Source: a virus. From it: 20,024 nt of DNA. The translations under genes and the position numbers were made by a program. The notes under the pieces were generated by a model. The model was not told the DNA's origin. It searched no databases and saw nothing but the letters and a program-made list of their open reading frames with translations. Shown here one piece after another: positions 1,008-16,594 of the stretch. Each line of letters opens with the position of its first letter. The first letter of the stretch is position 1. The stretch spans positions 1 to 20,024 of the IMG/VR virus record IMGVR_UViG_3300022841_000082; one strand, written 5' to 3'.

Positions 1008-1057
1008 TGGCGGAGTGGACGGGACTCGAACCCGCGACCCCCGGCGTGACAGGCCGG
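1008..1057 (-). other. Probable attP core: 3' half of a tRNA-Asp(GTC) gene
   Basis: The minus strand reads an anticodon arm (CCGGC-CTGTCAC-GCCGG, anticodon GTC at 1050-1048), a variable loop, a T arm with GGTTCGAGTCCC, the 3' acceptor strand and an encoded CCA at 1010-1008. No D arm or 5' acceptor strand precedes it, so it is not a complete tRNA gene. A tRNA 3' half next to a tyrosine integrase is the classical attP arrangement: integration would rebuild an intact tRNA-Asp in the host. Phage-type genes lie on both sides, so the sequence looks like unintegrated attP rather than attL or attR. Confidence 0.8.
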
Positions 1058-1099
1058 TGCCAGAAGCCAATGAACATGCGGCTTTCAAGAGGATTGACG

Positions 1100-1162
1100 T
1101 TCCAAAGTTAGGGGTAATTTTGATACGTTTCTCCTATGAAGAAGAAATTATATTCCAAACTT
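1100..1162. repeat. attP right arm: two TTCCAAA(G/C)TT sites
   Basis: TTCCAAAGTT is at 1100-1109 and TTCCAAACTT at 1153-1162, between the tRNA-like core and the end of the integrase gene. They match the three sites on the left of the core. The spacing of 53 bp (about five helical turns) would put the two on the same DNA face. Arm-site function is inferred. Confidence 0.55.
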
Positions 1163-1171
1163 TTTGGCTGT

Positions 1172-2263
1172 TTACCCTGCTGGTTTTGCACGCTTTACAA
1201 GACGCCTGTCGTAGACCTGCTGGATCATCTTGTCTGATGCATGGCCGGTAACATTTTTGACATCGGTGTCACCTCGTTCAAGCTTGTCGCTGACTCCCAT
1301 AGGACGGCATTCTTGAAGACTGAATTGCTTGAATGGGATGCTCTCTTTCTTGGCTTCCAAGATACATTCACGCATCAAGTCAGTCAGCATAGACTTCCAG
1401 CCACCTTTGGTATAGCGGCTTCCTTGCATATTGCCAAAGATGTACAAGCCACTGGCGGTCTTGTTACGCTGGATAGCCAAAGCTTCAGCAATAGTTTCCC
1501 GCAAACCAGGACTCCACTCAATCAAGATTGCAGGCTTGTCATGGTTCTTGCCGTCTTGCCACAAGATGCCGTCTTCTTGGATATTTTCTTTTTGGATTGC
1601 ACGAACTTCAACAGAGCGTCTGACACACAACCAAGCAGTGCGCAGACCCATTGCAACAATGTGCCTTGCACCGCCAAACTTGCGCCCTACTCTAGTAGCA
1701 AGCTCCATTTCTGCAGCAGTGACTAAGCGTCTTTGTTTGACAGTCTTGTTCTTGGTTAGATCTGAGAATGGGTTGATTGATACCAAACCTTTCTTGATGC
1801 CGTACTCCATGAACAGCCTAGCCAATGCCATCTCTTTGTTGCCTTTCTCAGGGCGAGTGGCTTGGCAAGCTTCAAGGTACTCATAGCCCATGGTTTTGGT
1901 GAGCTCTTCAAGTTCAAGATGGCCAAAAGCTTTTACTAAGTTAGCAGCTTCTGGCTTGTTGCCTTTTAAGGTGGAGTCTGCACGCCTTTCTTTTGATTTG
2001 ATAGGTAATGCCTCTTGCCAAGCAAACCAAGCCGCCACAAGGCCGCTAAAGCTGCCTACAATTACTTGTGAGCCCATATTCATAGCAGTCTCTACAGCGA
2101 GCTTGCGAGTTTTGGCAACTTCAATAGGATTGTTGGCTGGGCAATCGAGGCGAAAAGCCCAACGACCATCCAGCATCTTGTAGCCGATTGAATAGACGCG
2201 AACGCCTATGCGTTCGTAGACACGAAATGGAAGTCCATCAGGTTTAACGCGACGATTGATCAT
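1172..2263 (-). CDS. int: Tyrosine-family site-specific integrase
   Basis: A 363-residue phage integrase. The C-terminal catalytic domain shows the box I arginine (RRSVEV, about residues 215-220), GHAS with His341 and the nucleophile Tyr351 in VYDRR. The usual HxxR motif reads QECR (317-320), so the first histidine is replaced by glutamine. The N-terminal half would hold the arm-binding and core-binding domains. It would recombine the attP just downstream with a host tRNA-Asp gene. Its ATG overlaps the stop of the DUF4224-type gene (TAATG), so the two are co-translated. The attP lies immediately 3' of the gene, as in many temperate phages. Confidence in the family is high; activity with QxxR is untested. 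Confidence 0.92.
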   Translation of the reverse strand: MINRRVKPDGLPFRVYERIGVRVYSIGYKMLDGRWAFRLDCPANNPIEVAKTRKLAVETAMNMGSQVIVGSFSGLVAAWFAWQEALPIKSKERRADSTLKGNKPEAANLVKAFGHLELEELTKTMGYEYLEACQATRPEKGNKEMALARLFMEYGIKKGLVSINPFSDLTKNKTVKQRRLVTAAEMELATRVGRKFGGARHIVAMGLRTAWLCVRRSVEVRAIQKENIQEDGILWQDGKNHDKPAILIEWSPGLRETIAEALAIQRNKTASGLYIFGNMQGSRYTKGGWKSMLTDLMRECILEAKKESIPFKQFSLQECRPMGVSDKLERGDTDVKNVTGHASDKMIQQVYDRRLVKRAKPAG

Positions 2264-2490
2264 TATTTTCTCAAGAAGGAAATGTTGGCACTGCGTGCTG
2301 GTGCATTAATTCCGGTATGCCGACCTGTACTGATTGCTTCGTAATGAGAGCGCTCTAGCACCAACCCTGCCTTGCCAACAAAAGCTCTTGTGAAGCCTCG
2401 TTGATGCAAGACAGAGAGTTGCTTTCCAGGTTTGGCGTAACCAGTCAACGCAACTAACTCGTTTTCAGTCAGTGTGATGCTTGCTGTCAT
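2263..2490 (-). CDS. DUF4224-type small protein, integrase partner
   Basis: The 75-residue protein has LTENELVALTGYAKPGKQ near its N-terminus. This pattern (acidic, LTGY, basic, KQ, then a short winged-helix-like stretch) is one I recognise as DUF4224, a family usually next to integrases in phages of Burkholderiales. It may act as an excisionase or recombination directionality factor, which is inference from gene position. The start overlaps the preceding stop as ATGA, and its own stop overlaps the integrase ATG. Confidence 0.75.
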   Translation of the reverse strand: MTASITLTENELVALTGYAKPGKQLSVLHQRGFTRAFVGKAGLVLERSHYEAISTGRHTGINAPARSANISFLRK

Positions 2491-2714
2491 GCAGGCACGC
2501 CGATAGATTGAAAGAGTTGAAGACCTATCTCGTATGGAAAATGAGCTCCACGGTCTGCGACCAGGAGCTCATCGTTTTGTCGATTAAGACCCACAGCGCA
2601 ACCGATAAAAAAGACTTCACCATCCAACAAAGTATTTACTCGAACGATGCCAATATTTTGACCGCTGATTGGTGCAAACCAAACAGAGTCTACGACGTCA
2701 AAAGTTGTTTTCAT
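2487..2714 (-). CDS. Hypothetical protein (75 aa)
   Basis: The ATG at 2714 has AAGGAAA upstream. It overlaps the preceding stop and its own stop overlaps the DUF4224 gene (ATGA), so it belongs to a tightly coupled run that ends in the integrase. The sequence (MKTTFDVVDSVWFAPISGQ...) looks like a small beta-rich domain without recognisable motifs. I do not recognise it. Confidence 0.75.
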   Translation of the reverse strand: MKTTFDVVDSVWFAPISGQNIGIVRVNTLLDGEVFFIGCAVGLNRQNDELLVADRGAHFPYEIGLQLFQSIGVPA

Positions 2715-2884
2715 TTTGTTTCCTTAATCGATTCCATAGCCCAGTCTGCATCGCCTGAAATTCCGTAAGACTCACCAAAATGTATTTCTTCCCAAGCAAG
2801 TGTTTCTGCGTGGTTTTCATCGTCTGCTTCTACATTGATGACTGTGTACGAGACACGGCGCATTTCTACTTCATAAGTTTTCAT
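2711..2884 (-). CDS. Hypothetical acidic small protein (57 aa)
   Basis: The ATG at 2884 overlaps the stop of the DUF2591-type gene, and the stop at 2711 overlaps the next start. The product (MKTYEVEMRRVSYTVINVEA...) begins with a beta-strand-like stretch followed by an acidic segment (ADDENHAETLAWEEI). Such small proteins are common among accessory genes of phages. No function can be assigned. Its position between two clear genes with ATGA overlaps on both sides makes it a real gene despite its size. Confidence 0.75.
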   Translation of the reverse strand: MKTYEVEMRRVSYTVINVEADDENHAETLAWEEIHFGESYGISGDADWAMESIKETK

Positions 2885-3198
2885 GCATGTTCCTTTGGTA
2901 GTTCAAATTCGTCGCCCAGCTTGGTTGCCACGTAGCAGCGCATAGCCGCGATAAGTGGCGTTGGGCCGTAGTAATAAAACACTTCTCCGCTTTCTGTGTG
3001 CCTATATGCACATCCTTGGGTACTGCCTATCTGCTGACATACCAGCCCGATGTTCTCCCGCTCAATGATCGGGCCACCTTGTGCCCAATCGGTTGATGGA
3101 GACACTGCCACCTTTCTCTTTTGTTCGTCATAAACAAAAGGGAAAGGTAGGTCGGCACACTTCGCCACCGCCCAGTCAAGGGCTTCGTATGTTTTCAT
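2881..3198 (-). CDS. DUF2591 / NinX-like phage protein (105 aa)
   Basis: The product begins MKTYEALDWAVAKCADLP and contains SPSTDWAQGGPIIERE and GPTPLIAAMRCYVATKLGDE. This is the layout of the DUF2591 (NinX-like) family found in many phages, whose biochemical role is not known. I chose the ATG at 3198 because the LDWAVAK segment starts the family domain and the gene upstream ends at 3195 with an ATGA overlap. A longer reading to 3234 would start inside that gene. Confidence 0.8.
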   Translation of the reverse strand: MKTYEALDWAVAKCADLPFPFVYDEQKRKVAVSPSTDWAQGGPIIERENIGLVCQQIGSTQGCAYRHTESGEVFYYYGPTPLIAAMRCYVATKLGDEFELPKEHA

Positions 3199-3374
3199 TC
3201 TGTTTCTACAATCTCGCACCACAGGTTGCGGCAAATGTTGTAAATGTGGCTGTTGGCTTCGTCAGAGCCCACTCCATAAAGGTCAATGGTTTCTTCGTAG
3301 TGACGCTCTTCTTCACCCTGCAAATAGTTGAGTACCTGCACAAGAGTGTCTTTAGTTATCAGTACTTTTGGCAT
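3195..3374 (-). CDS. Hypothetical protein (59 aa)
   Basis: The ATG at 3374 has AAAGGA about eleven bases upstream. The product (MPKVLITKDTLVQVLNYLQ...) is acidic, probably mostly helical, and ends overlapping the start of the DUF2591-type gene. It has no motif that I recognise. It fills a gap between two well-supported genes and keeps the coupled spacing of this operon. Confidence 0.7.
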   Translation of the reverse strand: MPKVLITKDTLVQVLNYLQGEEERHYEETIDLYGVGSDEANSHIYNICRNLWCEIVETE

Positions 3375-3394
3375 TTAATATTTTTCCTTTGAAA

Positions 3395-4003: not shown

Positions 4004-4025
4004 AAAAAAACCCGCCTAAGCGGGT
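4004..4025 (-). terminator. Rho-independent terminator after the DNA polymerase gene
   Basis: On the minus strand ACCCGC-TTAG-GCGGGT is followed by seven T. It lies just after the polymerase stop and before the integrase-proximal operon, so it would set replication genes apart from the lysogeny/accessory genes. Confidence 0.85.
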
Positions 4026-4046: not shown

Positions 4047-6677
4047 TTAACTCGTTACAACAATTTGATGCTTGTCATGGAACTCTTTTTTAGTGTTGTC
4101 ACAGATGCTCCTAATCGTGTCCTGGTTGGCTTCATTAGGTAGCGTGGTAGCAGTGGCCCAGGTTGGCCAGAAGATGTCCAGAGCAGCACCTAGCTTCACA
4201 GTTGGATGCTGGATTTCAGGGAGTTCTTGCCATTGCATGGCAATGATCAGTTCCTTGTTAGCCCACTCCACAACAGCAACGTCATCTCTTATGAGGAGGT
4301 AGATGGCGTCGTGAATGAGAGCCACTGGTTTGATGTCCAGTCGGTAAGGCGATGCCCAGACTTTTCCCATAAAAGCTACAGCTGCACGGTTGTTGAGCAA
4401 GCCATAGGATTGACCTAGTGCATTGCCAGCGGTGCGGCCTTCAGCTGCAGCTTCGTAAGGCATACCTTTCTTGCCGAACATGACTTGCTTGAGCAAAGGT
4501 GTTCTGACCCTCAAGCCAAAAGCAACTTCCACATAACCGTCACTGGCTGCTTGATGCAGTCGTGCTTGTACGTAGTCGTCGCTTTCTTTGTAGAGGTCGT
4601 GGTAGCCCTTCTCAATGGCTTTGGATTTGTCTTCTGGCCAACCCAAGTTGTTCATCATCCCGTGATAAGTACCGCCGTAAGTTAGCAAGAAGGTTGGACC
4701 TTTTGAGTCTTGCCTTAGCTGGGGGTACTTTTTTTTAATGGTGTTAACACTGGTGGGATCGGACAAGATGATTTCAGGGCACTGGTCCCTGAAGTAGTAG
4801 GCGGCTCTAAGACAGTGTCCGTCAAAGCCTTGCTCATAAACGGCCAGTTTGTTTTTATCTTTGGTAGTAAGTGCACTGATGTAATCCTCCAATGAATTGA
4901 AGTCGGCTCCACAAAAGAGCCAACCTGGTGGGGCTTGAAAGCATTGCTTAATAAGTTTGCCAAACGTAGAACCTGCAGGCAAGTTCTGCATGTTGGGGTC
5001 ACTTGAAGACAAGCGGCCAGAGACTGTTCCGCCTAAGTTAAAGCTGCCATGCAAGTAGCGCATTCCATCGGCCTTCAGTAAGCCTTTTTCAAAAGCTGGA
5101 ATGAAGGTAGATAGGATTTTGCTGACTTTGCCATACGCTACTAAAGCAGTGAGCAAAGCTACGGCATCTGGATCACTGGCGTGGTTTACCAGTTTCTCTA
5201 AAGTGTCGGCACCTGTAGCGGGTTGCTTGGTGTCGGTGTAGTCCAGAACAGGTAGCCCCATTTGTACGTACAACAACTTTTGCAGCTGAATACCAGAGTT
5301 GGGGTTAAAGCAAACGTCTTTGAATTTCTCCAAAGGGTGTTGCTTTGTTTTGAGCTTGGTATTGGCTGCAGCTTGAGCGTTGCGTTGAAGGAGCAAGTTG
5401 AGCATGGTGATTTGAGAGCTGTTGGTTATCACAGACAAATGCTCGGCATGCTCTTGTTTTAGCTTGGCTTTGGTTTGCTCAATGGTTTCTGGAGACATGG
5501 GCATACCTTCCAGTTCCATTTGAATGATCAACTTGAGGCTGGGTAGCATCAAGTCTTCATAGAGTTGTAGCTGCTTGTCTTGAACCATCACGGAGTGATG
5601 CTTGTTGAACACATATTGCGTGCAGAGTGCATCAACCAAGTTGTACTCCAGCAGTTTGGTTAACGGCACCTTGCGGATGTCCTTAACCTCGACTGCCCAG
5701 TTGCCAGCAAACTCATGTGCCAAGGCTTTAAGACCTAGTACGTTACCTGCTGTGGAGTTGGTAGCTAGGTACGCAATGATTTTGGTATCTTGAAAGCGTT
5801 GAGTCATGATCTCTAAACCATCAAGGCAACCTGCTGTGTCTAAAAGATTTTTCATCCACAGAGTAGCAACGATAACTTTAATGTCATACGTTGCGTTGTG
5901 GAAGACAAGCTCACCTTGGTAGTTTGTAAAGAACTCTATAAGTAGCTGCCTGACCTCCAGGTTGACGTACTGATAGCCGCAAAGACCGTTTTCAACTTCT
6001 GTGTAAGGCGCGTAGTCACATGCGAAAGCAATGCCGTTGTGTTGGTCCCAGGCAAAAGCAATGGTGCCAATGCCAGCTTTGTTAAACCGAAGCGAAAACG
6101 CTTCGATGTCACACATCAAGCGAGGATGCTGGTGCAGTGCTTGTAAAGTAGCTTTGATGCTGACGTAGTCTTGTGGATACGCAGCTGAGTGAATGACGTT
6201 TTTGCCGATAGCTTGGTAGCTGCCGTGATGAGCATCAGCTAAGGTCTTCAAAGACAAATCAAGCTTAGCTTGGAGTTCTGGGTTGAAGATCAGTTGCTGG
6301 TAGTTCAAGCCAAGGATGACACTCATGTCTTCATACCCTTTAATCTTGCAAGGCAAGACGTAGCCGAGATGAGGTTCAGCACGGGCTTGGCCTGCTAGCA
6401 CTTTGAAGTAAGCAGCATCAGCTACATAAAGACGCTTGACGCTTAGGTCTTGCAAGGTAGGCAAGAGTTCATCAAGATAAGCTTTGATAAAGGTAGCAGG
6501 CGCTTTGCCAATATCGTTGTATGACAGCGTGAACGCAATCACTTCGTCTTGGCGAACGCCCTGCTCTACCAAAGGCTCAACGTAGTTAGCCAGCACTTCA
6601 GCCTTGCTGAAGGAGTTGGACTTGCACAGTAGAGCGTTGGTATAGCGGTCAGCTTCTTCAAAGATGTGGTGGCGCAT
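4047..6677 (-). CDS. Family A DNA polymerase with 3'-5' exonuclease (N4 gp39-like)
   Basis: The phage replicative polymerase, 876 residues from the ATG at 6677 (GAAAG upstream); a TTG four codons earlier is less likely. Exonuclease motifs: Exo I DIE (190-192), Exo II HNATYD (260-265) and Exo III with Asp349. Polymerase motifs: the SGRLSSSDPNMQNLP segment (about 553-567), motif A GADFNSLE with Asp592, motif B RQDSKGPTFLLTYG (655-668) and motif C IHDA with Asp790. Motif A has FNSLE and motif C HDA in place of the Pol I forms YSQIE and HDE, which fits a phage branch. There is no 5'-nuclease domain. Its position after a helicase and a small unknown gene matches the N4 order. A strong terminator follows. 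Confidence 0.93.
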   Translation of the reverse strand: MRHHIFEEADRYTNALLCKSNSFSKAEVLANYVEPLVEQGVRQDEVIAFTLSYNDIGKAPATFIKAYLDELLPTLQDLSVKRLYVADAAYFKVLAGQARAEPHLGYVLPCKIKGYEDMSVILGLNYQQLIFNPELQAKLDLSLKTLADAHHGSYQAIGKNVIHSAAYPQDYVSIKATLQALHQHPRLMCDIEAFSLRFNKAGIGTIAFAWDQHNGIAFACDYAPYTEVENGLCGYQYVNLEVRQLLIEFFTNYQGELVFHNATYDIKVIVATLWMKNLLDTAGCLDGLEIMTQRFQDTKIIAYLATNSTAGNVLGLKALAHEFAGNWAVEVKDIRKVPLTKLLEYNLVDALCTQYVFNKHHSVMVQDKQLQLYEDLMLPSLKLIIQMELEGMPMSPETIEQTKAKLKQEHAEHLSVITNSSQITMLNLLLQRNAQAAANTKLKTKQHPLEKFKDVCFNPNSGIQLQKLLYVQMGLPVLDYTDTKQPATGADTLEKLVNHASDPDAVALLTALVAYGKVSKILSTFIPAFEKGLLKADGMRYLHGSFNLGGTVSGRLSSSDPNMQNLPAGSTFGKLIKQCFQAPPGWLFCGADFNSLEDYISALTTKDKNKLAVYEQGFDGHCLRAAYYFRDQCPEIILSDPTSVNTIKKKYPQLRQDSKGPTFLLTYGGTYHGMMNNLGWPEDKSKAIEKGYHDLYKESDDYVQARLHQAASDGYVEVAFGLRVRTPLLKQVMFGKKGMPYEAAAEGRTAGNALGQSYGLLNNRAAVAFMGKVWASPYRLDIKPVALIHDAIYLLIRDDVAVVEWANKELIIAMQWQELPEIQHPTVKLGAALDIFWPTWATATTLPNEANQDTIRSICDNTKKEFHDKHQIVVTS

Positions 6678-6685
6678 GGGTTCTT

Positions 6686-7204
6686 TCAAATAAGCAGATT
6701 AGTAACCATCCTGCGTTTCATTAAATGAATAGTGTCTTTGTTTTTATCTTGAAGCAGAGATACTGTCTCATTAGACAATTTCTTACCTCGGCAAGGACAA
6801 GAGTCAATAAGCCTTTGCACAGGATGATGTAAAGATTCAGGTAACAGACGTAAATAATCATGTAATTCGTTGGATGAATTCAATACTTGATTAATAAAGC
6901 CCATGACAAAAGGCAACTCTTTTTCATTAAGTAGCTTTGCGTCAGTGAGCCAATCATTCATCAGAGGTTGCAACTGAATCAATAAACGATTCTGCTTGCG
7001 AGGCAAAGCAGTAGTATCGCAGTTGTACGTAACGTTCTTAAAAATAAAAGAAGTGTGCGCGTAGCCACCTAACAAAGTGTTCTTGTGAGCGATTTGATTA
7101 AGTCGGTCTTGAAATTCCTTATCAATAGGCGCATATAAAAACGTGTATAAAGTGTCTTTTATTTGACTTTTGGTTCGGGGATCTAGTTGCAAATGTTCTG
7201 ACAT
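6686..7204 (-). CDS. Hypothetical protein between helicase and DNA polymerase (172 aa)
   Basis: A mostly helical 172-residue protein with no motif I recognise, apart from a CPCRGKK segment near residue 135. GAGAA precedes the ATG at 7204, and the stop lies a few bases before the polymerase start. Its place between helicase and polymerase corresponds to the gene found there in N4 (about gp38), so a replication role is plausible. This rests on gene order alone. Confidence 0.8.
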   Translation of the reverse strand: MSEHLQLDPRTKSQIKDTLYTFLYAPIDKEFQDRLNQIAHKNTLLGGYAHTSFIFKNVTYNCDTTALPRKQNRLLIQLQPLMNDWLTDAKLLNEKELPFVMGFINQVLNSSNELHDYLRLLPESLHHPVQRLIDSCPCRGKKLSNETVSLLQDKNKDTIHLMKRRMVTNLLI

Positions 7205-7228: not shown

Positions 7229-8491
7229 TTAAGCTAAATCTCCGGTAAGAAATACTTTATTCCTAGCGCGACTAACTGCGACATAAAGCATCCTTGCTAT
7301 TTGATCGCCACTATTACAGCGGCTAACGTCATCAAGATCAATAAAGACCTCATCAAAAGTAGAGCCTTGGGCTTTGTTAATCGTGCAGGCATATGCTGCT
7401 CGCAGATCAACCCAACGCTCTTCTATCTCTTTTACTGCGTCCAGATCCTCATCAGCACGGGCTTGTTTGATACGTGTTTTTTTGTCATGCAAAGTTTTAG
7501 GCATGAAAGCTGCAACTTCGTTATCTAGTGCAAAGTTGTTGCCTAGAACTCCCAGGCGTTCTACGTCTGATGAGATGCCTGTGATTTGCACCATTTGGTT
7601 TGCTTTGATGCCTTTCCTGCCTACGGATAGAAAGTTGTTAGAAACTGCGTAGTCTTCTACTGCAAAGGCAGGAGCGCCTTTAACATGAGCACTAACATAG
7701 TCGTTAAAACTAATCACGCACTTGTTGGTCCAGCCCAAGATTTTGGAATCTGAGAAGCGCCAGTTGGGACGGTTGAACTCTTTTGCAATAGCTTGGTTGA
7801 ACTCAGCACGCTCAAGGTAAACAACATGATGGCCATCAGGTATGAATTTGAAGAACTCACCTGAGTTAACAGTGTCTCTGAACTTGGTAGAAAGAGCCAC
7901 AATAGGGTTGCCTTCAGCTTGCCGTACTACTTGTGTAAGAGTAGCGCCTGAAAACTTAGAACTAAATACAGGTGTGCCTTTGCTTTTGACAGGTGTCAGC
8001 TGTGCAGGATCACCCACAAACACCACTTTGCAGTTGCTTGTCAGTGTGAAGATGAATTCCAGCAGCTGTTTGTCGATGTAGCTGGCTTCATCAATAAACA
8101 ACAAGCAGTCTTCTTTAACGTCGTGTGACCTGGGTATCAGCGTGGTTTCGTTGGTTTTGTAGTCTGTTTGGACACGCAAGCCTAGAAACGAATGGATAGT
8201 GCTTACCTTTTGTCCAGTGATGTGGGCGAGGTTCTCAGCCGCCTTGTTAGTAGTAGCTGTAAGCTCAATTTGGTAGTCCCGTTGTGCGGGGTTAACCAAC
8301 TTGCCAACCTTTAGAAAATTAGGTGCAGCTTCCACTAAGGTTTTAACCAAAGTGGATTTGCCACAGCCTGAAAAGCCTGACAAGACAAAAACTGTTTCAA
8401 TGGGATCAGCCAAGAATTGATAAAACAAATCTGTGGCTTTTTGTTGATCTGTTGTCAGCTCAAAAGGAGCAATCGCAGTCAAAGTATTCAT
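7229..8491 (-). CDS. RecD/Dda-type SF1 DNA helicase (N4 gp37-like)
   Basis: A 420-residue ATP-dependent helicase. Walker A is GFSGCGKST (39-47) and Walker B LLFIDEAS (about 130-137). Motif III is VGDPAQLTPV (159-168), the UvrD-C2-type motif V is INKAQGSTFDEV (371-382) and motif VI YVAVSRAR (403-410). The compact length fits Dda-like phage helicases that act with the replisome, probably unwinding 5' to 3'. The start overlaps the previous stop (ATGA) and has GGAG upstream. It is followed by the unknown protein and the DNA polymerase, as in N4. Confidence 0.92.
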   Translation of the reverse strand: MNTLTAIAPFELTTDQQKATDLFYQFLADPIETVFVLSGFSGCGKSTLVKTLVEAAPNFLKVGKLVNPAQRDYQIELTATTNKAAENLAHITGQKVSTIHSFLGLRVQTDYKTNETTLIPRSHDVKEDCLLFIDEASYIDKQLLEFIFTLTSNCKVVFVGDPAQLTPVKSKGTPVFSSKFSGATLTQVVRQAEGNPIVALSTKFRDTVNSGEFFKFIPDGHHVVYLERAEFNQAIAKEFNRPNWRFSDSKILGWTNKCVISFNDYVSAHVKGAPAFAVEDYAVSNNFLSVGRKGIKANQMVQITGISSDVERLGVLGNNFALDNEVAAFMPKTLHDKKTRIKQARADEDLDAVKEIEERWVDLRAAYACTINKAQGSTFDEVFIDLDDVSRCNSGDQIARMLYVAVSRARNKVFLTGDLA

Positions 8492-8802
8492 GAGTGTGCA
8501 GGCTCCGGTTCAATTTTTATAAGATCAGCAGGCTTTATTCCTAACAAAGCTGCTACTTTGATACGCACATATTCAGCGTGAGATAGTAAGTGTGTTTCAA
8601 GCACATTACGGTCTATTTCACTAATGGTATGTTGCCCATCATAAGGTTCATTAAGTGCTTCCGCATTAGACAAAGAGTTAATAAAAGTAACGCCATCTTT
8701 GTAAGGCAATACAATTTTATGTCCCCAAGACATTTTTATAACCATGTAATTTTCTTTAATTTTTGCAGCAGTTACTTTTTTGTGCGCTTCTTCAAAGTTC
8801 AT
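8488..8802 (-). CDS. Hypothetical protein (104 aa)
   Basis: The ATG at 8802 lies directly after the VWA gene stop, with GGAG upstream. Its stop overlaps the helicase start. The sequence (MNFEEAHKKVTAAKIKENYMVIKMSWGHK...) suggests a small mixed alpha/beta protein with a C-terminal helix that ends in LGIKPADLIKIEPEPAHS. No function is recognisable. Because it is coupled to the helicase, it may belong with replication. Confidence 0.8.
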   Translation of the reverse strand: MNFEEAHKKVTAAKIKENYMVIKMSWGHKIVLPYKDGVTFINSLSNAEALNEPYDGQHTISEIDRNVLETHLLSHAEYVRIKVAALLGIKPADLIKIEPEPAHS

Positions 8803-9942
8803 TTAATTCTCCATAGAGTAATGAATAGTTTTGCCGAATGGGGCATTAAACTGCGGATTGTCATTAATAAGCCAAAGCATATTAACTTTGGTTTCAGTGG
8901 TATAGAAATGGAAATGACCATCGGTAAATACCAGAAGTAATTGCGGTTTATTTTCATTAGCCCAGTCGAGAACTGGATTAATATAAGTACCCCCTTGACC
9001 TATGAATTTGACATCCATAAGTTGTCGTACTGTTTTAATAGTATGTACTGAATTAATATCTGTATCAAACTGAATTAAACTAATTTTGTCAGGCTGCATC
9101 ATTTTTAAAATAGAATGTGTTTCTGTGACAAAACGTTGAAAGTCAGTATTAGATACTGATCCAGATATATCTATTGCAATAGCAATATCCATTAACTTAT
9201 TGCTAAACAAACTAGGTAAATGATACTTAGGAAAGAACCGTCTATTTGGTTTGCGAAACGTGTAATCATTTTTGGCAAAGTTAAAAAGATATTTCTGAAG
9301 TATGCGATTCCATGGAAGTTTAGGTTTAAGTAAATGATCTAAGTAAATCTGAATTTCCCCAGGAATACTACCAATCTTGTCAGAGCTCATCTTGGATTGC
9401 ATAGCTGCACGCATTAAGATGTTTTGGATGTCTTCTTCTAGTTGATCACTAGATTGATCACCAGGAACAACATCGTTATCCATAGGGTTTGGAGGTGGCT
9501 CAGGCTGCGCAATTAAAATAGCGTATATCTGTTCTGCACTAAGACCTTCATAAATACTGTCGGCATATCCATGAGCTGGCATTTTAAAACCGCGTTTAAT
9601 TAACTGAAGGTTAATAACATGGTCGCACGCAATATTAAATATGCGCTGCTTATACCCTACACCACGACTCATGTGCAGATATGCACAGTGCATGGCTTCG
9701 TGTATTAAAAGAAATACTCTTTCTGCTGGAGATAATTCCATAAAGAATACGGTATTAAACTTAATCCATTTACCATTAGTAGCGGCGGTAGGAATACTAT
9801 TATCAAAGCTGGTCTTTAAAGAAAAACACAGCGTAGTAAAGAAAACTGAATCTGGCGTAGATAACAGTTGCAGTTTGGTTTTATTTAATGCTTGCTGATG
9901 TTCAGTATTTACTGCATTAAGTGTTTGAATTTCGGAGGCCAT
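8803..9942 (-). CDS. VWA/metallopeptidase-like protein (DUF2201 type, N4 gp25-like)
   Basis: The N-terminal part (about 70-110) holds HEAMH (81-85) with a following CDH, the pattern of a zinc-binding metallopeptidase-like domain. The C-terminal part (about 250-379) is a VWA-like domain with the MIDAS sequence DISGS (258-262), GGTY (317-320) and FTDG (339-342). A low-complexity Pro/Asp/Ser linker joins them. Such proteins pair with MoxR-type AAA ATPases as metal-dependent chaperone or remodelling systems, and the AAA gene is two genes upstream. The N4 pair gp24/gp25 is the likely equivalent; its role is not well established. AGGGA precedes the ATG at 9942. Confidence 0.88.
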   Translation of the reverse strand: MASEIQTLNAVNTEHQQALNKTKLQLLSTPDSVFFTTLCFSLKTSFDNSIPTAATNGKWIKFNTVFFMELSPAERVFLLIHEAMHCAYLHMSRGVGYKQRIFNIACDHVINLQLIKRGFKMPAHGYADSIYEGLSAEQIYAILIAQPEPPPNPMDNDVVPGDQSSDQLEEDIQNILMRAAMQSKMSSDKIGSIPGEIQIYLDHLLKPKLPWNRILQKYLFNFAKNDYTFRKPNRRFFPKYHLPSLFSNKLMDIAIAIDISGSVSNTDFQRFVTETHSILKMMQPDKISLIQFDTDINSVHTIKTVRQLMDVKFIGQGGTYINPVLDWANENKPQLLLVFTDGHFHFYTTETKVNMLWLINDNPQFNAPFGKTIHYSMEN

Positions 9943-10204: not shown

Positions 10205-11218
10205 TTAGTAATACGCTACAGCTGACTCATCTTGCCATTTAATAAAGGCAGGGTGTTGAGCTAATTGCGTTTTTCTTTTAATAGCAGTTTTCAGGGTTAT
10301 AACTTGAAACTCTACTGGCATACGCATGATGTATTTCATGAGTTGACCAATATTACTATTCTGCATGTTTTCTGCAATAGAGCCTGTAATGGCATACAGC
10401 ACTGACGGTTCTTCAGGAATAGCCACAGTCTCAGGAGATGCTTCAATCTGGCTCATCTTGGGTAATGAGTCATAGATCTTGCAAAAGGTGATGAACTCAC
10501 GGGCAATGCCTTCAGAAACAGCGCCTGAATACAGAATAAGCTCTTCTGGAGAGTTCTCAGGCAATTTACCAATCAGACGGTTTAAAAACTCCCATGTTCG
10601 TGGGCACGCATAGGTACTGTCTGTGTGATCTGGCTGAAAACTGAACAAAGCTTTGCCATTAAAGCCTATGTAGTCGGTAATCTTGTGGTGAATGCCGTTG
10701 TTATTGGCCCAAGTTATCCATTCCTTGACATCAACGCGCAACTCCACATGTACTAATCGGGATTGTAAAGCTGTGCTCATAGGATTTACGATAGCGTTGT
10801 CTGTTTCCAGATTACCAGCGCATACAGTGATTACTTTAGAGTTTAAAGAGCTTTGACCTACCATTCGATCAAGTACTAGCTTGTAAGCAGCAGCTTGAAC
10901 AGCAGGTGAAGCAGAGTTGAACTCATCTAAGATCAACATCCAGCCAACATAGCCTTCAGGAATAGGGTCATCCTCTAATGGAAAAGTTTCCATAGGAACA
11001 TATCCAGCTTTATTGCCTTTAATGTTAGGGAATCCTAGTAAGTCTGTTGGGTCACATTGACTTAAACGTAGGTCAATGACTTTAAGGCGGTACTCTTTAG
11101 CAATCTGGTGGAAGATTTGGGACTTTCCACAACCTGGACTGCCTACTAGCATGGGAACTAGCTTGGCTTTGATGATAGCAGTGATTACAGACACGGCTTG
11201 ACTGGCTTTAACTTGCAT
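10205..11218 (-). CDS. MoxR-type AAA ATPase (N4 gp24-like)
   Basis: A 337-residue AAA+ ATPase. Walker A is GSPGCGKS (26-33), Walker B LILDEF (95-100), and sensor 1 is around VCAGNLETD with Asn136. The probable arginine finger is ALQSRL (Arg154). MoxR-type ATPases act as ring-shaped remodelling machines together with VWA proteins such as the one encoded at 8803-9942. In N4-like phages this pair is conserved in the middle region, but its substrate is unknown to me. The ribosome site is weak (GAAAG, spaced long), so the start is likely but not certain. Confidence 0.9.
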   Translation of the reverse strand: MQVKASQAVSVITAIIKAKLVPMLVGSPGCGKSQIFHQIAKEYRLKVIDLRLSQCDPTDLLGFPNIKGNKAGYVPMETFPLEDDPIPEGYVGWMLILDEFNSASPAVQAAAYKLVLDRMVGQSSLNSKVITVCAGNLETDNAIVNPMSTALQSRLVHVELRVDVKEWITWANNNGIHHKITDYIGFNGKALFSFQPDHTDSTYACPRTWEFLNRLIGKLPENSPEELILYSGAVSEGIAREFITFCKIYDSLPKMSQIEASPETVAIPEEPSVLYAITGSIAENMQNSNIGQLMKYIMRMPVEFQVITLKTAIKRKTQLAQHPAFIKWQDESAVAYY

Positions 11219-11229
11219 GAAATAGCTTT

Positions 11230-11418
11230 CTAACTGGCTTTAAGTTGATAAAGCAGTGTGTTTTGAAACGTCATCAACAAAGTAGTGATGTCGTTTTTGT
11301 TAGTGATAGGTAACTTGGATTCAGCAAAGTCGATGACTTCTTGTATGCTGCCCATGGTCGGAAAGAGGGCCATAGGCACCGCACGGAGTGACGGCTGATG
11401 CAATGAAGGTTTAACCAT
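11230..11418 (-). CDS. Hypothetical small protein (62 aa)
   Basis: The ATG at 11418 overlaps the end of the HTH gene by eight bases. An internal ATG at 11373 (MALFPTMGSIQEVIDFAESK) could be the true start, because the protein-like part begins there; neither has a strong ribosome site. The C-terminal segment (KNDITTLLMTFQNTLLYQ) looks helical. It directly precedes the AAA ATPase gene. The function is unknown. Confidence 0.65.
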   Translation of the reverse strand: MVKPSLHQPSLRAVPMALFPTMGSIQEVIDFAESKLPITNKNDITTLLMTFQNTLLYQLKAS

Positions 11419-11662
11419 GCTTAGGTACGTCTTTCTTTTGGATCAGGTCTTTAAAAAAGCGCAGCACCACAGCAACAAAATTAAACCTAGTTTGAATGGA
11501 CTCTGGTTTGATAGGTTGATTACGAATTTGCTCACGCAGCACTCGGTGAATAGTGCGGGTTGAGCAATTAAAAGCACCAGCAAGATCAGAGATGTGTATC
11601 CCTTTTTGATAGTGTTGGAAAACTTGCTGTTGCTCGTGTTGTGTCAGACATTTGACGGTCAT
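11411..11662 (-). CDS. Small helix-turn-helix DNA-binding protein (83 aa)
   Basis: The N-terminal half contains a clear resolvase/Hin-like helix-turn-helix (QGEQ-type first helix, then ISDLAGAFNCSTRTIHRVL, about residues 24-42). The rest is a basic tail (FFKDLIQKKDVPKHG). It could be a transcription regulator acting on the 11.8-12.0 kb intergenic region just upstream, which holds a perfect palindrome. It is the only obvious candidate regulator in the window. The start overlaps the preceding stop as ATGA. Confidence 0.8.
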   Translation of the reverse strand: MTVKCLTQHEQQQVFQHYQKGIHISDLAGAFNCSTRTIHRVLREQIRNQPIKPESIQTRFNFVAVVLRFFKDLIQKKDVPKHG

Positions 11663-12056: not shown

Positions 12057-13301
12057 TCAGCTTAAACCGTAGTTGCTCTCACGAATGTGATCTGCCAAGT
12101 CATATGTCATCTTGGGAAAGACTCCAGCACGGCCATGTATCTGGCTTAACAAGTCATCTAACAACATAGATTGAGCAATCTCTGCCATGAGTTCTCTGTA
12201 CTGCCATCGAACTGCGTTAAGGTTGTTTGGATGAGCTTTAAACTCATCATGAACAGTTACTAACTCAAAAGGTTTGTATGAAAGCATGCTTGTGACAAGA
12301 TGTAACAAACCTTTAAGGTGCGTATCTGACAAGCACATAACAGAAGAATCATCTAGATAAGGCAGGATAACTGCGCTAATCATGGTGCTACGTTCGTACT
12401 GCTCAGCGTAGTATGCTACTTTGTCATTACAAGGCGGTAGATTCCGCACTTCGAATAAGCTTCGCTTAGTTATTTCTGCATCAATAGCTTCTACTACATC
12501 GTTCAGCATAGCTGCATCGTAGTTACAACGTCTATGCATCTCACGCAAGACGTAACCGTCTACTGAGTGAACAACATTGGCAGCGTTAGATAGACCAGCA
12601 CGTTGTCCAATGTTTTCATAGAACTCGTATGTAAAAGTAGCATGGTCTAATTCGTCAACCTCAATACGTACTTCTTTCTTATTCATTACCTTTATTTTGG
12701 CGTCAAATCCGTCAGGCAACTTCCACTCATGTAAAAGTGCCCATGGCTTCCAGCTGGCCAGCAAGTCTTGCAGCAACGTCCAAGCACCAGGTGCTACTTC
12801 GTTTGCTGCTTGATAGAAGGCATCCAGCTCAGGCGTATCTTCACCAAAGATCTCCTTTGGCATGGCTTTAGAGCCGTAGAAAGATGTCATAAGCGCTTGT
12901 TTTGCGTCTTGTCGTGAGATGTTTACTGCGTTACCTTCTCCTAAAATAGTATTCATCATTTGGGTAGCTTTGGTATAGGCGTCAGCTCGCTCATTAGGGT
13001 TGATCAGACCTGTAGCTGTAGCGCCTTTCAAGCAGCCTGTCATGACAGACATGATCTGAATGCCTGAACAACACGCATCTAAGCCCACCATGTGGCCACT
13101 AGGAATGCCTTGTTGTGCTTTGCGCACAGCCATTACAGCCTTCATAAACAAAGGCTTGGTTTCAGCTTCTGCAGACAATAGCTCTAAAGTCTCCAAGTTG
13201 TCTGTAGCCCACTTGATACGTTCTTCAAAGATTAGCTTGTCATGGCCAAACTGGTTGGCTACGTCGATGAGCAGGTAGTCCCAGCCGGTATATGTTTTCA
13301 T
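12057..13301 (-). CDS. Single-subunit RNA polymerase, catalytic (large) subunit (N4 RNAPII gp16-like)
   Basis: This 414-residue protein carries the palm and fingers of a T7-family polymerase. Motif A is GLDACCSGIQ with Asp75 (T7 Asp537). Motif B is RQDAKQALMTSFYG, with Arg130, Lys134 and Tyr142 (T7 Arg627, Lys631, Tyr639). VVHSVDG follows at 243-249 (T7 FVHSQDG), and motif C is VHDEF with Asp352 (T7 Asp812). The N-terminal half of the enzyme is encoded by the preceding gene, 29 bases away, so the active polymerase should be a heterodimer as in N4. It would transcribe the middle genes. Compared with T7, about 80 extra residues lie between HSxDG and HD. AGGA precedes the ATG at 13301. Confidence 0.93.
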   Translation of the reverse strand: MKTYTGWDYLLIDVANQFGHDKLIFEERIKWATDNLETLELLSAEAETKPLFMKAVMAVRKAQQGIPSGHMVGLDACCSGIQIMSVMTGCLKGATATGLINPNERADAYTKATQMMNTILGEGNAVNISRQDAKQALMTSFYGSKAMPKEIFGEDTPELDAFYQAANEVAPGAWTLLQDLLASWKPWALLHEWKLPDGFDAKIKVMNKKEVRIEVDELDHATFTYEFYENIGQRAGLSNAANVVHSVDGYVLREMHRRCNYDAAMLNDVVEAIDAEITKRSLFEVRNLPPCNDKVAYYAEQYERSTMISAVILPYLDDSSVMCLSDTHLKGLLHLVTSMLSYKPFELVTVHDEFKAHPNNLNAVRWQYRELMAEIAQSMLLDDLLSQIHGRAGVFPKMTYDLADHIRESNYGLS

Positions 13302-13330: not shown

Positions 13331-14239
13331 TTAGGTTGGAACACCTTCAATCAATTCAGGTGTGGACAGCTCAAGCATGGCTTTCTTGAATGCTGACCCT
13401 TGAGTATTTATGTGGTATCCATGTGAATAAATACGACCTCTTTTGTCTACTTTGTGGTTAAAGTAAAACTTATTGCCTTGCGTTGCCATGAGTAGGTAGA
13501 ACTCATAGCTTTGCTTCTTGAAATGCGCCCAGCCTTCCTCTTTATCTTGGGTGTCCAAGTCAAAGGTTGGCTCTTCTTCAACAGTACTTAAGAACTCGGT
13601 GTCTACTTGTAGAGCAACCTTGTTCATGGTGTTTAAAACATCTAGACAGATGTCTCCGTCATGGTGGTTGCCTGATCCTAAGATTAAGCTGTCGTTGTGC
13701 GTGAGATAGCCTGATGAGTAGTTGTGAGTCAACTCTAAAGGCTCGCACACCATAGGAGGTAAGAACTGGCTGTTGTCTATGAACTCAATGAGCTTTTGAG
13801 GTAACGGAATACAAGACTGGACCATTAAACTGGCGCTTTTGTTGTCTTTAGTAATGTCAAAGGCATCTGTTCTACACAGTACTGCCATAAGTTCAGCAAC
13901 TGTAGTAATAGCTTCTGTTCTGTCACTTAGTTTTAAGCGCGAAGACATCTGCGATGACACAGAAGTAAACAGTTCAGGACGCAAGCAGTAAGCAATGCCT
14001 ACAAACATGTCCATTACTAAAGATGAGATGTCCATGTTGTCTAACTGCTCTAATCTCTTCATTTTGGAGCTGTAGTACGTAGCTGAAAGGTACTCTGTGA
14101 CTAACTCAATACCTCTTTTAAGCTTGTCTTGCATTTCAGAGCTGGCTTCAATGGCTTTTCTGATCTTCACATCAATGTGCTTCTTGTTGAAGCGCTCTTC
14201 GTTTATCTCTTGTACGACAATGTCACGCATAGTTTCCAT
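13331..14239 (-). CDS. Single-subunit RNA polymerase, N-terminal (small) subunit (N4 RNAPII gp15-like)
   Basis: A 302-residue protein matching the part of a T7-family polymerase before motif A. Near its end it has FYFNHKVDKRGRIYSHGYH and NTQG (about 258-281), corresponding to T7 MDWRGRVY and NPQG. It stops shortly after, where a one-chain polymerase would continue. The catalytic residues lie in the next gene. Such a break between the DxxGR segment and motif A is the known arrangement of N4 RNAPII, so this is a natural split and not a recent nonsense mutation: the next gene has its own strong ribosome site. I chose the ATG at 14239 (GGAG, six bases of spacing). Confidence 0.9.
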   Translation of the reverse strand: METMRDIVVQEINEERFNKKHIDVKIRKAIEASSEMQDKLKRGIELVTEYLSATYYSSKMKRLEQLDNMDISSLVMDMFVGIAYCLRPELFTSVSSQMSSRLKLSDRTEAITTVAELMAVLCRTDAFDITKDNKSASLMVQSCIPLPQKLIEFIDNSQFLPPMVCEPLELTHNYSSGYLTHNDSLILGSGNHHDGDICLDVLNTMNKVALQVDTEFLSTVEEEPTFDLDTQDKEEGWAHFKKQSYEFYLLMATQGNKFYFNHKVDKRGRIYSHGYHINTQGSAFKKAMLELSTPELIEGVPT

Positions 14240-14263
14240 AATGATCTCCAATGAATGTTTTTT

Positions 14264-14653: not shown

Positions 14654-14913
14654 AGGGTTACTACCAAGGTTTTGCGCAAGTCGTAAATAAACGCATTGCG
14701 TTTAACTTGGGCATCAGTGCTAAAACCGATATTGGCTTTTTCATACGCACTGAAGCTGCTGATGAAGACGGGATTGGCTTGAGCTTTGGCTTTAAGCACA
14801 CGACGAGCATCGCGTCCTCTTGTCCAAACGCTATAGTCATCGCTCATTTCATAGCTCCAGTCATGCTGGTTTAAGTCTTTGACATAGGCGTCAAATTGTT
14901 CAAGCGTGGGCAT
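14650..14913 (-). CDS. Hypothetical early protein (87 aa)
   Basis: The ATG at 14913 has AAAGGA seven bases upstream, and hairpin promoter A lies 35 bases further upstream. A longer reading to 14997 would include the promoter itself and is rejected. The product (MPTLEQFDAYVKDLNQHDW...) is charged and without a known motif. It overlaps the SLOG-type gene as ATGA. It is probably the first gene of the transcript carrying the split RNA polymerase. Confidence 0.8.
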   Translation of the reverse strand: MPTLEQFDAYVKDLNQHDWSYEMSDDYSVWTRGRDARRVLKAKAQANPVFISSFSAYEKANIGFSTDAQVKRNAFIYDLRKTLVVTL

Positions 14914-14940
14914 AGTTAATCCTTTGATGTGGCAAAAGCG

Positions 14941-14961
14941 CCAGCCAATGGCCGTAGGCCA
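14941..14961 (-). promoter_or_regulatory. Hairpin early promoter A
   Basis: On the minus strand TGGCC-TAC-GGCCA is followed by T, four variable bases and TGG. This is one of five copies of the same 21-bp element. A short hairpin with a 3-base loop and a fixed initiation distance is the form of N4 virion RNA polymerase promoters. Initiation would be expected at or near the conserved TGG, about 12 bases past the loop centre. It would drive the 87-residue gene, the SLOG gene and the RNA polymerase pair. Confidence 0.75.
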
Positions 14962-14983
14962 AGCTAAAGGAACAACTAAGAAC

Positions 14984-15018
14984 AAAAAAAAGGCCACACA
15001 TCACCTGATGTGCAGCCT
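14984..15018 (-). terminator. Rho-independent terminator upstream of promoter A
   Basis: On the minus strand AGGC, CACATCA/TGATGTG and GCCT form a two-part stem, followed by about eight T. It would insulate promoter A from transcription arriving from the right. The 76 bases between it and the next terminator (15019-15094) have no start codon and show nothing else recognisable. Confidence 0.7.
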
Positions 15019-15094
15019 GTGGTTAGCTGAAACAGTAAATCTGCGGACTGTCTCGGCTGGGGTAAATATGCCTATAAATAGACACTAAATATGT

Positions 15095-15134
15095 AAAAAA
15101 ACACTGCTCTCACCTGTGAGGGTGAAAACAGTGT
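15095..15134 (-). terminator. Rho-independent terminator after the 90-aa early gene
   Basis: On the minus strand ACACTG/CAGTGT and TCACC/GGTGA are separated by a small internal loop and followed by seven T. It lies seven bases beyond the stop of the gene ending at 15142. Confidence 0.8.
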
Positions 15135-15141
15135 AGTTAGA

Positions 15142-15414
15142 TTAGCTCAGATCAAAGCCTGAAGCTTCTGATCCTTCAACGCGGGTGTATTCAATGATCA
15201 GCTTGGCCAATAACGCGCTTACTCGCGTTGGGTCTTCGTTCAACCAATCAAGCATTTCGCGTTCGCCTGTCTTGTTATTCCTGAGTGGAATAAAACCTAA
15301 TTTGCGGCGCTTGCTACCATCTTTTGATGGCAAATAGAGGTTTAAGAAACCTTGAGCTTCCCAAGCAGTATTGGGTTTAACAGAAGCTGGTGAGACGTTG
15401 GATTTGAAAGACAT
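15142..15414 (-). CDS. Hypothetical early protein (90 aa)
   Basis: I chose the ATG at 15414, because a longer reading to 15510 would run through hairpin promoter B. GGA lies eight bases upstream. The sequence contains NTAWEAQGFLNLYLPSKDG and KLGFIPLRNNKTGERE, followed by a helical C-terminus. The layout is that of a small beta-rich domain with a basic loop, which could contact nucleic acid, but this is speculative. I have the impression that similar proteins occur in other N4-like phages. It is a one-gene unit with its own promoter and terminator. Confidence 0.8.
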   Translation of the reverse strand: MSFKSNVSPASVKPNTAWEAQGFLNLYLPSKDGSKRRKLGFIPLRNNKTGEREMLDWLNEDPTRVSALLAKLIIEYTRVEGSEASGFDLS

Positions 15415-15452
15415 GTGGTGTTCCGATAAAAGTGAGAGAGGATCGAATTGAC

Positions 15453-15473
15453 CCAATATATGGCCGTAGGCCA
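15453..15473 (-). promoter_or_regulatory. Hairpin early promoter B
   Basis: Same element as promoter A: TGGCC-TAC-GGCCA, then T, four variable bases (ATAT) and TGG on the minus strand. It lies 38 bases before the 90-residue gene start, leaving space for a short leader. Confidence 0.75.
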
Positions 15474-15587
15474 AGCAACGTCTTTTTGTTAAAAAGGCTG
15501 CAAAAGACAATTCTTTACACTTTTGATTAGTTTTGTTGTAAGGCGGTAGTGTAAGAGTGTACCCTGCCTTTTTGTAAGGGAAAACCT

Positions 15588-15659
15588 TTAGAAAGCTAGC
15601 AGAATGCCGATGCCTGCAAAAACAGCGACGGTTAAAACGCCATAAAAGAAATCGCTCAT
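15588..15659 (-). CDS. Tiny membrane peptide (23 aa)
   Basis: The ATG at 15659 follows GGAG with nine bases of spacing. The 23-residue product (MSDFFYGVLTVAVFAGIGIL) is one hydrophobic segment followed by LAF, so it would be a single-span membrane peptide. No function is known. It lies after a terminator and has no hairpin promoter of its own, so it would depend on read-through from promoter C. Its size makes it less certain than its neighbours, but small membrane peptides are common in early regions of phages. Confidence 0.5.
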   Translation of the reverse strand: MSDFFYGVLTVAVFAGIGILLAF

Positions 15660-15686
15660 GAAATGAACTCCGGTTGTAAAAAGACG

Positions 15687-15709
15687 AAAAAAAGAGGACA
15701 AAAGTCCTC
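15687..15709 (-). terminator. Rho-independent terminator after the 38-aa early gene
   Basis: On the minus strand GAGGAC-TTTT-GTCCTC is followed by seven T. It lies 24 bases beyond the stop at 15734. Confidence 0.85.
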
Positions 15710-15733
15710 AGTGATTGGGTGAAGTGAGGCTGA

Positions 15734-15850
15734 TTAAGTCAGCCACTCTTCTGAGTATTCGGTTTGAAGTGCGTCTTCAAGAGCAAAGACAATGTCTGTT
15801 GATAGAACATCAAAGTCGTTGAGCGGTAAGGACAAGTCGTTGTATGACAT
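15734..15850 (-). CDS. Tiny acidic early protein (38 aa)
   Basis: The ATG at 15850 has GGAG upstream, inside the palindrome GGAGATCTCC; a longer frame to 15940 would run through promoter C and is rejected. The product (MSYNDLSLPLNDFDVLSTDI...) is strongly acidic (about nine Asp/Glu, one or no basic residues). Small acidic early proteins of phages often bind and inhibit host nucleic-acid-binding proteins or act as DNA mimics, but here this is only a possibility. The gene has its own promoter and terminator. Confidence 0.7.
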   Translation of the reverse strand: MSYNDLSLPLNDFDVLSTDIVFALEDALQTEYSEEWLT

Positions 15851-15909
15851 AAGGAGATCTCCAATGAATGGGACAAGTGGTTGGGAAGTAAAGAAAGCCT
15901 TTACTAACT

Positions 15910-15930
15910 CCAGGAAATGGCCGTAGGCCA
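15910..15930 (-). promoter_or_regulatory. Hairpin early promoter C
   Basis: TGGCC-TAC-GGCCA, then T, four variable bases (TTCC) and TGG on the minus strand. It lies 59 bases before the 38-residue gene. Confidence 0.75.
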
Positions 15931-15954
15931 GGAAGAGCAAAGAGAAAGAACCTA

Positions 15955-15969
15955 TCTCCGATAAGGAGA
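15955..15969 (-). terminator. Possible weak terminator
   Basis: TCTCC-GATAA-GGAGA forms a 5-bp hairpin after the two-span membrane protein gene. On the minus strand the following bases (TAGGTTCTTTC) are only partly T-rich. It fits the pattern of one terminator per early unit, but is weak. Confidence 0.35.
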
Positions 15970-15991
15970 CGGTCTTAGAGCTCTTGGCTTC

Positions 15992-16195
15992 TTATTTGAT
16001 AGGTGCGGTAAGCACCAGGCGGTAAGCGCCGTAGATGGCCAATACATTAGTTACAAGACCTAATGAGAAGGCAATGATTGGGTGAAGGCCAAAGCCTTGA
16101 GTGATGTATTCAATGCCTAAGACAATTAGTATTACTGACATCATTGCCAGAAAGATGCAGCAAACAAAGATAGCAACAGTGTTGAGAGTAGTCAT
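15992..16195 (-). CDS. Small early membrane protein, two spans (67 aa)
   Basis: The ATG at 16195 is behind GGAA. The 67-residue product has two hydrophobic segments: about residues 7-28 (AIFVCCIFLAMMSVILIVLG) and about 40-60 (IAFSLGLVTNVLAIYGAYRL). A short loop containing YITQGFGLHP joins them. It would sit in the host inner membrane early in infection. An alternative start at 16225 is possible but has no better ribosome site. Function unknown; membrane proteins made early can mediate superinfection exclusion, which is only a hypothesis here. Confidence 0.75.
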   Translation of the reverse strand: MTTLNTVAIFVCCIFLAMMSVILIVLGIEYITQGFGLHPIIAFSLGLVTNVLAIYGAYRLVLTAPIK

Positions 16196-16234
16196 GATTA
16201 GTTCCAATGAAGTTGTGAAGAACATAAGGTATGT

Positions 16235-16255
16235 CCAATAGATGACCGTAGGTCA
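16235..16255 (-). promoter_or_regulatory. Hairpin early promoter D (compensatory variant)
   Basis: TGACC-TAC-GGTCA, then T, four variable bases (CTAT) and TGG on the minus strand. It differs from the other four copies by two changes, on opposite arms, that keep the stem paired (G-C to A-T). This is strong evidence that the hairpin itself is selected. Confidence 0.78.
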
Positions 16256-16381
16256 GAGTAGTGCTGATATATCGTCTGTGTATCGGAATGAGAGAGATAG
16301 AGTTAATAGAGTTAATTAGGTAAAGGTTCTTACTACTTAACTGACTATCTAAATGTGTTGTGTATGTGTAGGACTTAATAG

Positions 16382-16399
16382 GCTACCCCGAAGGGTAGC
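16382..16399 (-). terminator. Strong hairpin after the first early gene
   Basis: On the minus strand GCTACCC-TTCG-GGGTAGC, a 7-bp stem with a UUCG tetraloop, lies seven bases beyond the stop at 16406. The T tract that follows is poor (CTATTAAG), so it could be an RNA-stabilising 3' hairpin as well as a terminator. The sequence between it and promoter D (16256-16381) has no ATG on the minus strand and holds the 16-bp element at 16268-16283. Confidence 0.6.
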
Positions 16400-16405
16400 G
16401 TGATA

Positions 16406-16594
16406 TTAAGGTGCTGTGAGAGCAGCTAGCTCTTTAGCTTGGTTGATGAGTTTGACCTTGCGGTCATTGGCAGCTTCGTCAGCGAATGCTGCTGATGTGC
16501 CTTCGGCCCATGAACTAATGTGAGCGAATGCTCGGCAGAAGTTGGTGATACCTTCGATCAATGTAATGATCATGATGTTGAATGCACGGAACAT
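16406..16594 (-). CDS. Small early protein with hydrophobic N-terminus (62 aa)
   Basis: The first gene of the minus-strand early region. The ATG at 16594 has only a weak ribosome site (GAAAG). The N-terminal segment (MFRAFNIMIITLIEGITNFC) is amphipathic to hydrophobic; the rest is Ala-rich and helical, ending KLINQAKELAALTAP. No family is recognised. It is preceded by promoter E and followed by a strong hairpin, so it is a one-gene unit. Confidence 0.75.
   Translation of the reverse strand: MFRAFNIMIITLIEGITNFCRAFAHISSWAEGTSAAFADEAANDRKVKLINQAKELAALTAP

Follow-up and report, generated by a model that had tools for sequence, protein, structure and literature searches.

A probable tRNA-Asp attachment site next to an integrase and its excisionase-type partner in an apparently temperate N4-like phage

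The viral record IMGVR_UViG_3300022841_000082 of the IMG/VR database, classed as linear and analysed here over its whole 20,024 bp (the window), carries genes in the order known from coliphage N4 together with an integration module at the far end of the same strand. Read from 16.6 kb towards 1.2 kb, the minus strand encodes short early genes, the two RNA polymerase chains RNAP1 and RNAP2, an AAA ATPase, a VWA protein, a Dda-like helicase, the DNA polymerase PolA, a cluster of small unknown genes and, finally, the excisionase-type protein Xis and the integrase Int; the plus strand holds homologues of N4 gp69 and of the large terminase TerL. Taken as a whole, the window is best explained as a portion of a temperate N4-like phage genome, a reading to which we give a probability of roughly 0.85.

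The integration module comprises a tyrosine integrase of 363 aa (1172-2263, minus strand; phrog_1, 7.7e-20), for which no Pfam family was reported, and a 75-aa partner (2263-2490, minus strand) matching the excisionase family phrog_1266 (1.7e-5) and Pfam DUF4224 (E 0.0005; 20.4 bits, slightly below the cut-off of 22). Residues R216, K239, R320, H341 and Y351 of Int align with the catalytic residues of integrases from temperate phages, the HxxR position reading QxxR, and the stop codon of xis overlaps the start of int as it does in the Xis-Int pairs of other temperate phages. The window thus offers the combination taken here as the mark of a temperate phage, an integrase with its catalytic residues and a partner excisionase. 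A small excisionase-type gene also directly precedes or overlaps the integrase gene in the phages BUCT709 (Stenotrophomonas), BgManors32 (Burkholderia) and mEp390, the last of which has its phage attachment site, attP, just downstream of a DUF4224 Xis-Int module, although the integrases of these three phages are 19-28% identical to that of the window and none of them is N4-like by annotation. Structure prediction of the integrase with AlphaFold (two sequences) was uninformative, with a mean pLDDT of 33.6.

Next to int, a scan for T-loop motifs detected the 3′ half of a tRNA-Asp(GUC) gene, from the anticodon arm to the CCA (1008-1059, minus strand), which matches tRNA-Asp genes. ARAGORN calls no tRNA in the window because only half of the gene is present, and an Rfam scan of the integrase loci returned no tRNA pieces. 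The half gene is flanked by arm-type repeats resembling AACTTTGGAAT, three on the distal side (922-932 on the minus strand, 928-938 and 936-946 on the plus strand) and two on the integrase side (1099-1109 and 1152-1162, both minus). All five sites found in the window with at most one mismatch fall within 922-1162, against 0-2 sites in shuffled windows. Just downstream of the tRNA half stands a hairpin with a 12-bp stem and a TTCG loop (960-987, minus strand; fold z −6.2), which may be a terminator supplied by the phage to the restored tRNA gene. Altogether, the tRNA-Asp half and its flanking arm repeats look like a real attP, as an earlier note on this DNA had proposed, and the tyrosine integrase and DUF4224-type partner that it named were likewise borne out. 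The note had also placed the module past a terminator; an intrinsic terminator-like site was indeed found by a terminator search 3′ of the polymerase gene (4010-4025, minus strand), between PolA and the module, such sites being no commoner in the window than in shuffles. Beyond the attachment site, two small neighbouring genes (88-264 and 261-578, minus strand) have in common a similar C-terminal end (VEAKLKEKN) and a PWVGLT motif, which suggests a tandem duplication.

The remaining genes tie the window to Escherichia phage N4 (NC_008720, Schitoviridae, Enquatrovirus), whose order gp15-gp16-gp24-gp25-gp37-gp39 and gp69-gp68 was recovered by tblastn at protein identities of 31-56%. RNA polymerase II is split into a small subunit, RNAP1 (gp15; 13331-14251, minus; phrog_2166 'N4-like RNA polymerase', 2e-100), and a large one, RNAP2 (gp16; 12057-13301, minus; phrog_2051, 1.9e-152). 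There follow on the same strand a MoxR-type AAA ATPase (gp24; 10205-11218; phrog_1297, 4.6e-121), a VWA protein with a Pfam DUF2201 match (gp25; 8803-9942; phrog_1314, 6.8e-121), the Dda-like helicase (7229-8491, matching gp37), an unlabelled protein that corresponds to gp38 by position only (6686-7204; phrog_7095) and the family A DNA polymerase (gp39; 4047-6689; phrog_17, 1.7e-148; 47% identical to gp39). On the plus strand lie the gp69 homologue (16824-17519; phrog_2109, 4.2e-95; 46%) and TerL (18535-20022; 56% to gp68), truncated at the contig end. The split polymerase, the MoxR/VWA pair and the helicase-polymerase order, on which the earlier note had relied, therefore all hold, and gene content and order confirm the assignment to the N4-like phages (Schitoviridae). 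RNAP1 is at most 47% identical to that of isolated Schitoviridae phages, so the window represents a distinct lineage. Moreover, no integrase was found in N4, where gp40-gp41 occupy the place of the integrase island.

The hairpin promoters claimed in the early region were also recovered. The motif GRCCTACGGYCA has five copies (14949, 15461, 15918, 16243 and 16630), all of them on the minus strand of the early region, and none in 100 shuffles. A rule demanding a 5-bp stem, a TNC loop, the second half of the 5-bp stem, 5 nt and TGG gave five sites in the window, again all in the early region, and none in ten shuffles. Numbered from the presumed virion DNA end, which the first one adjoins, the putative promoters lie at 16630-16642, 16243-16255, 15918-15930, 15461-15473 and 14949-14961; the second one has its stem altered on both sides (GACC/GGTC), and the relatives described below likewise show changes in both arms of the stem but keep the loop pattern. 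With the spacing set to 3 nt instead of the 5 nt of the window, the same rule returns three sites in the early region of N4 (90, 559 and 4548), a phage for which three hairpin promoters are known (PMC3715699). A hairpin with a 6-bp stem and the TAC loop of the early promoters (AGTCGCTACGCGACT) occurs at 17700-17716 on the plus strand, in the late direction and a short way ahead of the gene at 17735, its spacing to TGG being unlike that of the early promoters.

Upstream of the first promoter there is a poly-C tract (16649-16658, C on the minus strand) preceded by a variable hairpin. A run of at least nine C occurs once per genome in 12 out of 12 genomes, in each case in the interval that separates gp69 from the first early genes, and in linear N4 it lies near the left end, beginning at nt 32. 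This is where an end would be expected in the Schitoviridae, whose virion DNA is linear with direct terminal repeats. A conserved CAGGACT-like stretch upstream of the run resembles the right end of N4 (GAGTTCAGTATT), and the site probably corresponds to the joined ends of the virion DNA.

A search with RNAP2, the productive query (the integrase gave no confirmed match in IMG/VR), retrieved 29 viral contigs at 37-75% identity. Five of them (G001, G002, G006, G011 and G026) have all of N4 gp50, the virion RNA polymerase (vRNAP), gp56 (major capsid protein), gp59 (portal), gp68, gp69 and the gp42-gp46 replication block, and exact overlaps of their ends (43 bp in G001, 127 bp in G002 and 85 bp in G011) are those of circular assemblies. 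The earlier note had made its N4-like reading depend on an N4-type vRNAP, and a gp50-matching single frame of 3,396-3,623 aa is present in all seven integrase-bearing whole-genome contigs. The closest relative, G001 (69 kb, circular), carries the major capsid protein, the portal, TerL and a vRNAP frame of 3,623 aa. In this independent assembly PolA, Xis, Int and the tRNA-Asp half follow each other in the order of the window, with Int 72% identical, a single mismatch over the final 44 bases of the tRNA half and 79% DNA identity across 919-1167. The four AACTTTGGAAT sites of the whole G001 genome are all at its attachment site, and the counterpart of the terminator hairpin (z −5.0) has a different stem sequence with pairing and loop kept. 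A variable island of G001 (57946-69167), between the gp42 block and the attachment site, contains tail-fibre-like, Mtd-N-domain and endolysin genes on the late strand, apart from the other structural genes.

This comparison bears on whether the integrase end of the window (0.9-4.0 kb) could have arisen as an assembly chimera or could span a junction of prophage and host, a suspicion raised by a contig end lying just 1 kb past the attachment site. The same gene order in G001 argues strongly against it, as does the presence of the 3′ half of the tRNA only, with minus-strand frames continuing beyond it, two of them with a common short repeat; we regard such an artefact as highly improbable. The tree of RNAP2 speaks to a second alternative, namely that the module is a decaying remnant in a phage that is now effectively virulent. 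Genomes with an integrase are scattered across the whole tree, which points to frequent gain and loss and leaves some room for decay. In the window, however, the frames of Int and Xis are open, the catalytic residues are conserved, the arm repeats and the terminator pairing are maintained with respect to G001, and the supported clade formed by the window, G001, G002 and G003 (99/95) has an integrase in four out of four members, so that decay seems unlikely, if less so than a chimera.

Across the group the integrase gene occupies the interval from gp39 to the gp42 block or, on partial contigs, a position next to gp39, with the exception of G023, where it is found between the VWA and AAA genes (7499-8512, minus strand). 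The integrases belong to several types, mostly less than 30% identical between types, and therefore appear to have been exchanged; repeated swapping, mostly at this one locus between gp39 and gp42, would be a new feature of these phages. Halves of tRNA genes (the 3′ part) were detected near the integrase in five genomes, tRNA-Asp in the window and G001, and an Arg-type half with a CTACGAA anticodon loop, about 0.6-1 kb from int, in G006, G007 and G019, which we read as tRNA-Arg(ACG).

Direct evidence of integration comes from a more distant relative. In contig NZ_JAPVOT010000007.1 of Alteromonas sp. BMJM2, an N4-like genome of 72.7 kb (22,699-95,407) lies between identical 30-bp repeats, the right one being the 3′ end of an intact tRNA-Leu gene to which int adjoins. 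Inside it we find a vRNAP (3,587-aa frame, matching gp50), the major capsid protein, the portal and TerL. Once joined to each other, the two flanks match an uninterrupted stretch across the junction in each of the sister genomes G1166 and G248 (84% identity); the match begins 28 bp to the left of the core, takes in the tRNA and runs on for about 300 bp into the right flank, which reveals the empty site; in BMJM2 the same flank halves are 72.7 kb apart. An N4-like phage has thus been integrated at a tRNA gene in this bacterium, which supports the temperate N4-like reading of the earlier note. The prophage shares with the window's group the full N4 gene set, the position of the integrase between gp39 and the gp42 block and the use of a tRNA target, and differs from the window in having an unrelated integrase type (Arm-DNA-bind_2), tRNA-Leu as its target and an RNAP2 that is 43% identical. 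The poly-C run is internal in this prophage, so that the prophage is permuted relative to the virion DNA. Among the 397 genomes of the family sample, a split RNA polymerase was found in BMJM2 only, the others having single chains of 835-878 aa. Samples drawn at phylum and class level (398 and 369 genomes) otherwise gave mostly single chains of 830-870 aa, with a few partial or weak matches. Single-chain RNA polymerases of 830-870 aa in the bacterial genomes G681, G793 and G618 match the N4-like RNAP1 family and probably belong to other polymerase-bearing prophages.

From these elements a life cycle can be proposed for the phage of the window. Its vRNAP, delivered by the virion, would start at the hairpin promoters between 16.6 and 14.9 kb and yield RNAPII, which in turn would transcribe the replication genes of the minus strand, xis and int lying at the end of that block, past the terminator. 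The integrase would bind the arm repeats at about 1.0 kb and recombine the tRNA-Asp half with a host tRNA-Asp gene, in such a way that integration would restore the tRNA, with both its 3′ half and a fresh terminator coming from the phage. The resulting prophage would be permuted with respect to the virion DNA, with gp39 and the gp42-45 block on either side of the attachment site and the virion ends joined internally, and it might be kept quiet mainly by the dependence of its early promoters on a polymerase that usually comes in with the virion; no CI-type repressor would then be required.

This last step starts from N4 itself, whose early transcription needs the injected vRNAP and whose late transcription needs N4SSB, a middle product (PMC4496689), so that a lysogen lacking vRNAP would be expected to stay silent by default. 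We tentatively propose a repressor-free lysogeny, in which prophages would be silent since only the virion-delivered polymerase reads the early promoters, while considering it rather doubtful. Its main rival, an unrecognised regulator, concerns only dormancy: the phage would still be temperate, but silenced by a conventional repressor encoded in the unseen part of the genome or by the small helix-turn-helix (HTH) protein at 11411-11662 (minus strand; phrog_1303, 1.1e-4), an explanation with not far short of an even chance. In its favour, most temperate phages known do encode such a repressor; the small HTH protein is found again in several relatives, and in the Alteromonas prophage, too, an HTH protein is encoded near int (89782-90282). 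On the other hand, homologues of the small protein occur in relatives both with and without integrase, including the integrase-free G012, and when relatives with an integrase were compared with those lacking one, no convincing regulator emerged that only the former possess, the differences being mostly antisense noise. Moreover, six-frame searches with the Pfam families HTH_3 and S24 found no HTH_3 in the BMJM2 prophage contig or in the seven integrase-bearing contigs, save that the small HTH gene in G002 gave one match below the cut-off (14.7 bits); S24 was absent from all eight genomes. HTH_3 was detected in five of six temperate controls (lambda, KS5, mEp390, ZF40 and BUCT709), and not in BgManors32, the sixth, or in N4. 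A Pfam census of the non-core open reading frames (ORFs) of the Alteromonas and G026 prophages, superseded by these searches, included no CI or S24 among the families listed (25 of 39 for Alteromonas), and ORF picking was unreliable in the GC-rich G026.

Several observations weigh against the picture drawn here. A scan of genome collections with the RNAP2 query found no integrated copy of the window's phage, only the distant relative. The record is a linear fragment, so that the phage's own vRNAP, major capsid protein and portal fall outside it. No host promoter was found for int and xis in the window, sigma-70-like sites being at chance level. With respect to the template contacts of N4 vRNAP, −11A/G, −10G and −8G (PMC4496689), the TAC loop would give T and not a purine at −11, and −8G is not kept; in our own numbering only −10G is shared, so the likeness is one of architecture and the polymerase of this phage must use a somewhat different code. 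Finally, the repressor search covers two Pfam families, which makes other regulators possible, and the temperate control BgManors32 also lacks an HTH_3 match.

The rarity of temperate N4-like phages assumed by the earlier note has to be qualified: the integration module that it described is there, but the novelty is smaller than thought, because lysogeny genes in 54 N4-like genomes, together with 40 proviruses, had already been reported (PMC10654107, mSystems 2023). Like the phages discussed here, those viral genomes combine N4 core genes with a phage integrase, and the proviruses reside in bacterial genomes; the study itself warns of chimeric assembly for one host group. In its main text the terms attL, repressor and hairpin are absent, and tRNA appears once, for host prediction. 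What is new here are the anatomy of the attachment site, the empty site, the shared integration locus, the apparent swapping of integrases and the missing CI-type repressor.

N4-like phages have long been regarded as strictly lytic, and work in phage therapy and ecology infers lifestyle from family. Exact attachment sites together with an empty site give a firmer footing to N4-like lysogeny, previously argued from gene lists, and make testable the question of how a prophage enters, is kept and exits when its first transcription needs an RNA polymerase carried by the virion. If the silent-by-default proposal were true, N4-like lysogens would lack classical immunity, and a related phage infecting the cell would activate the resident prophage in trans through the vRNAP that it injects.

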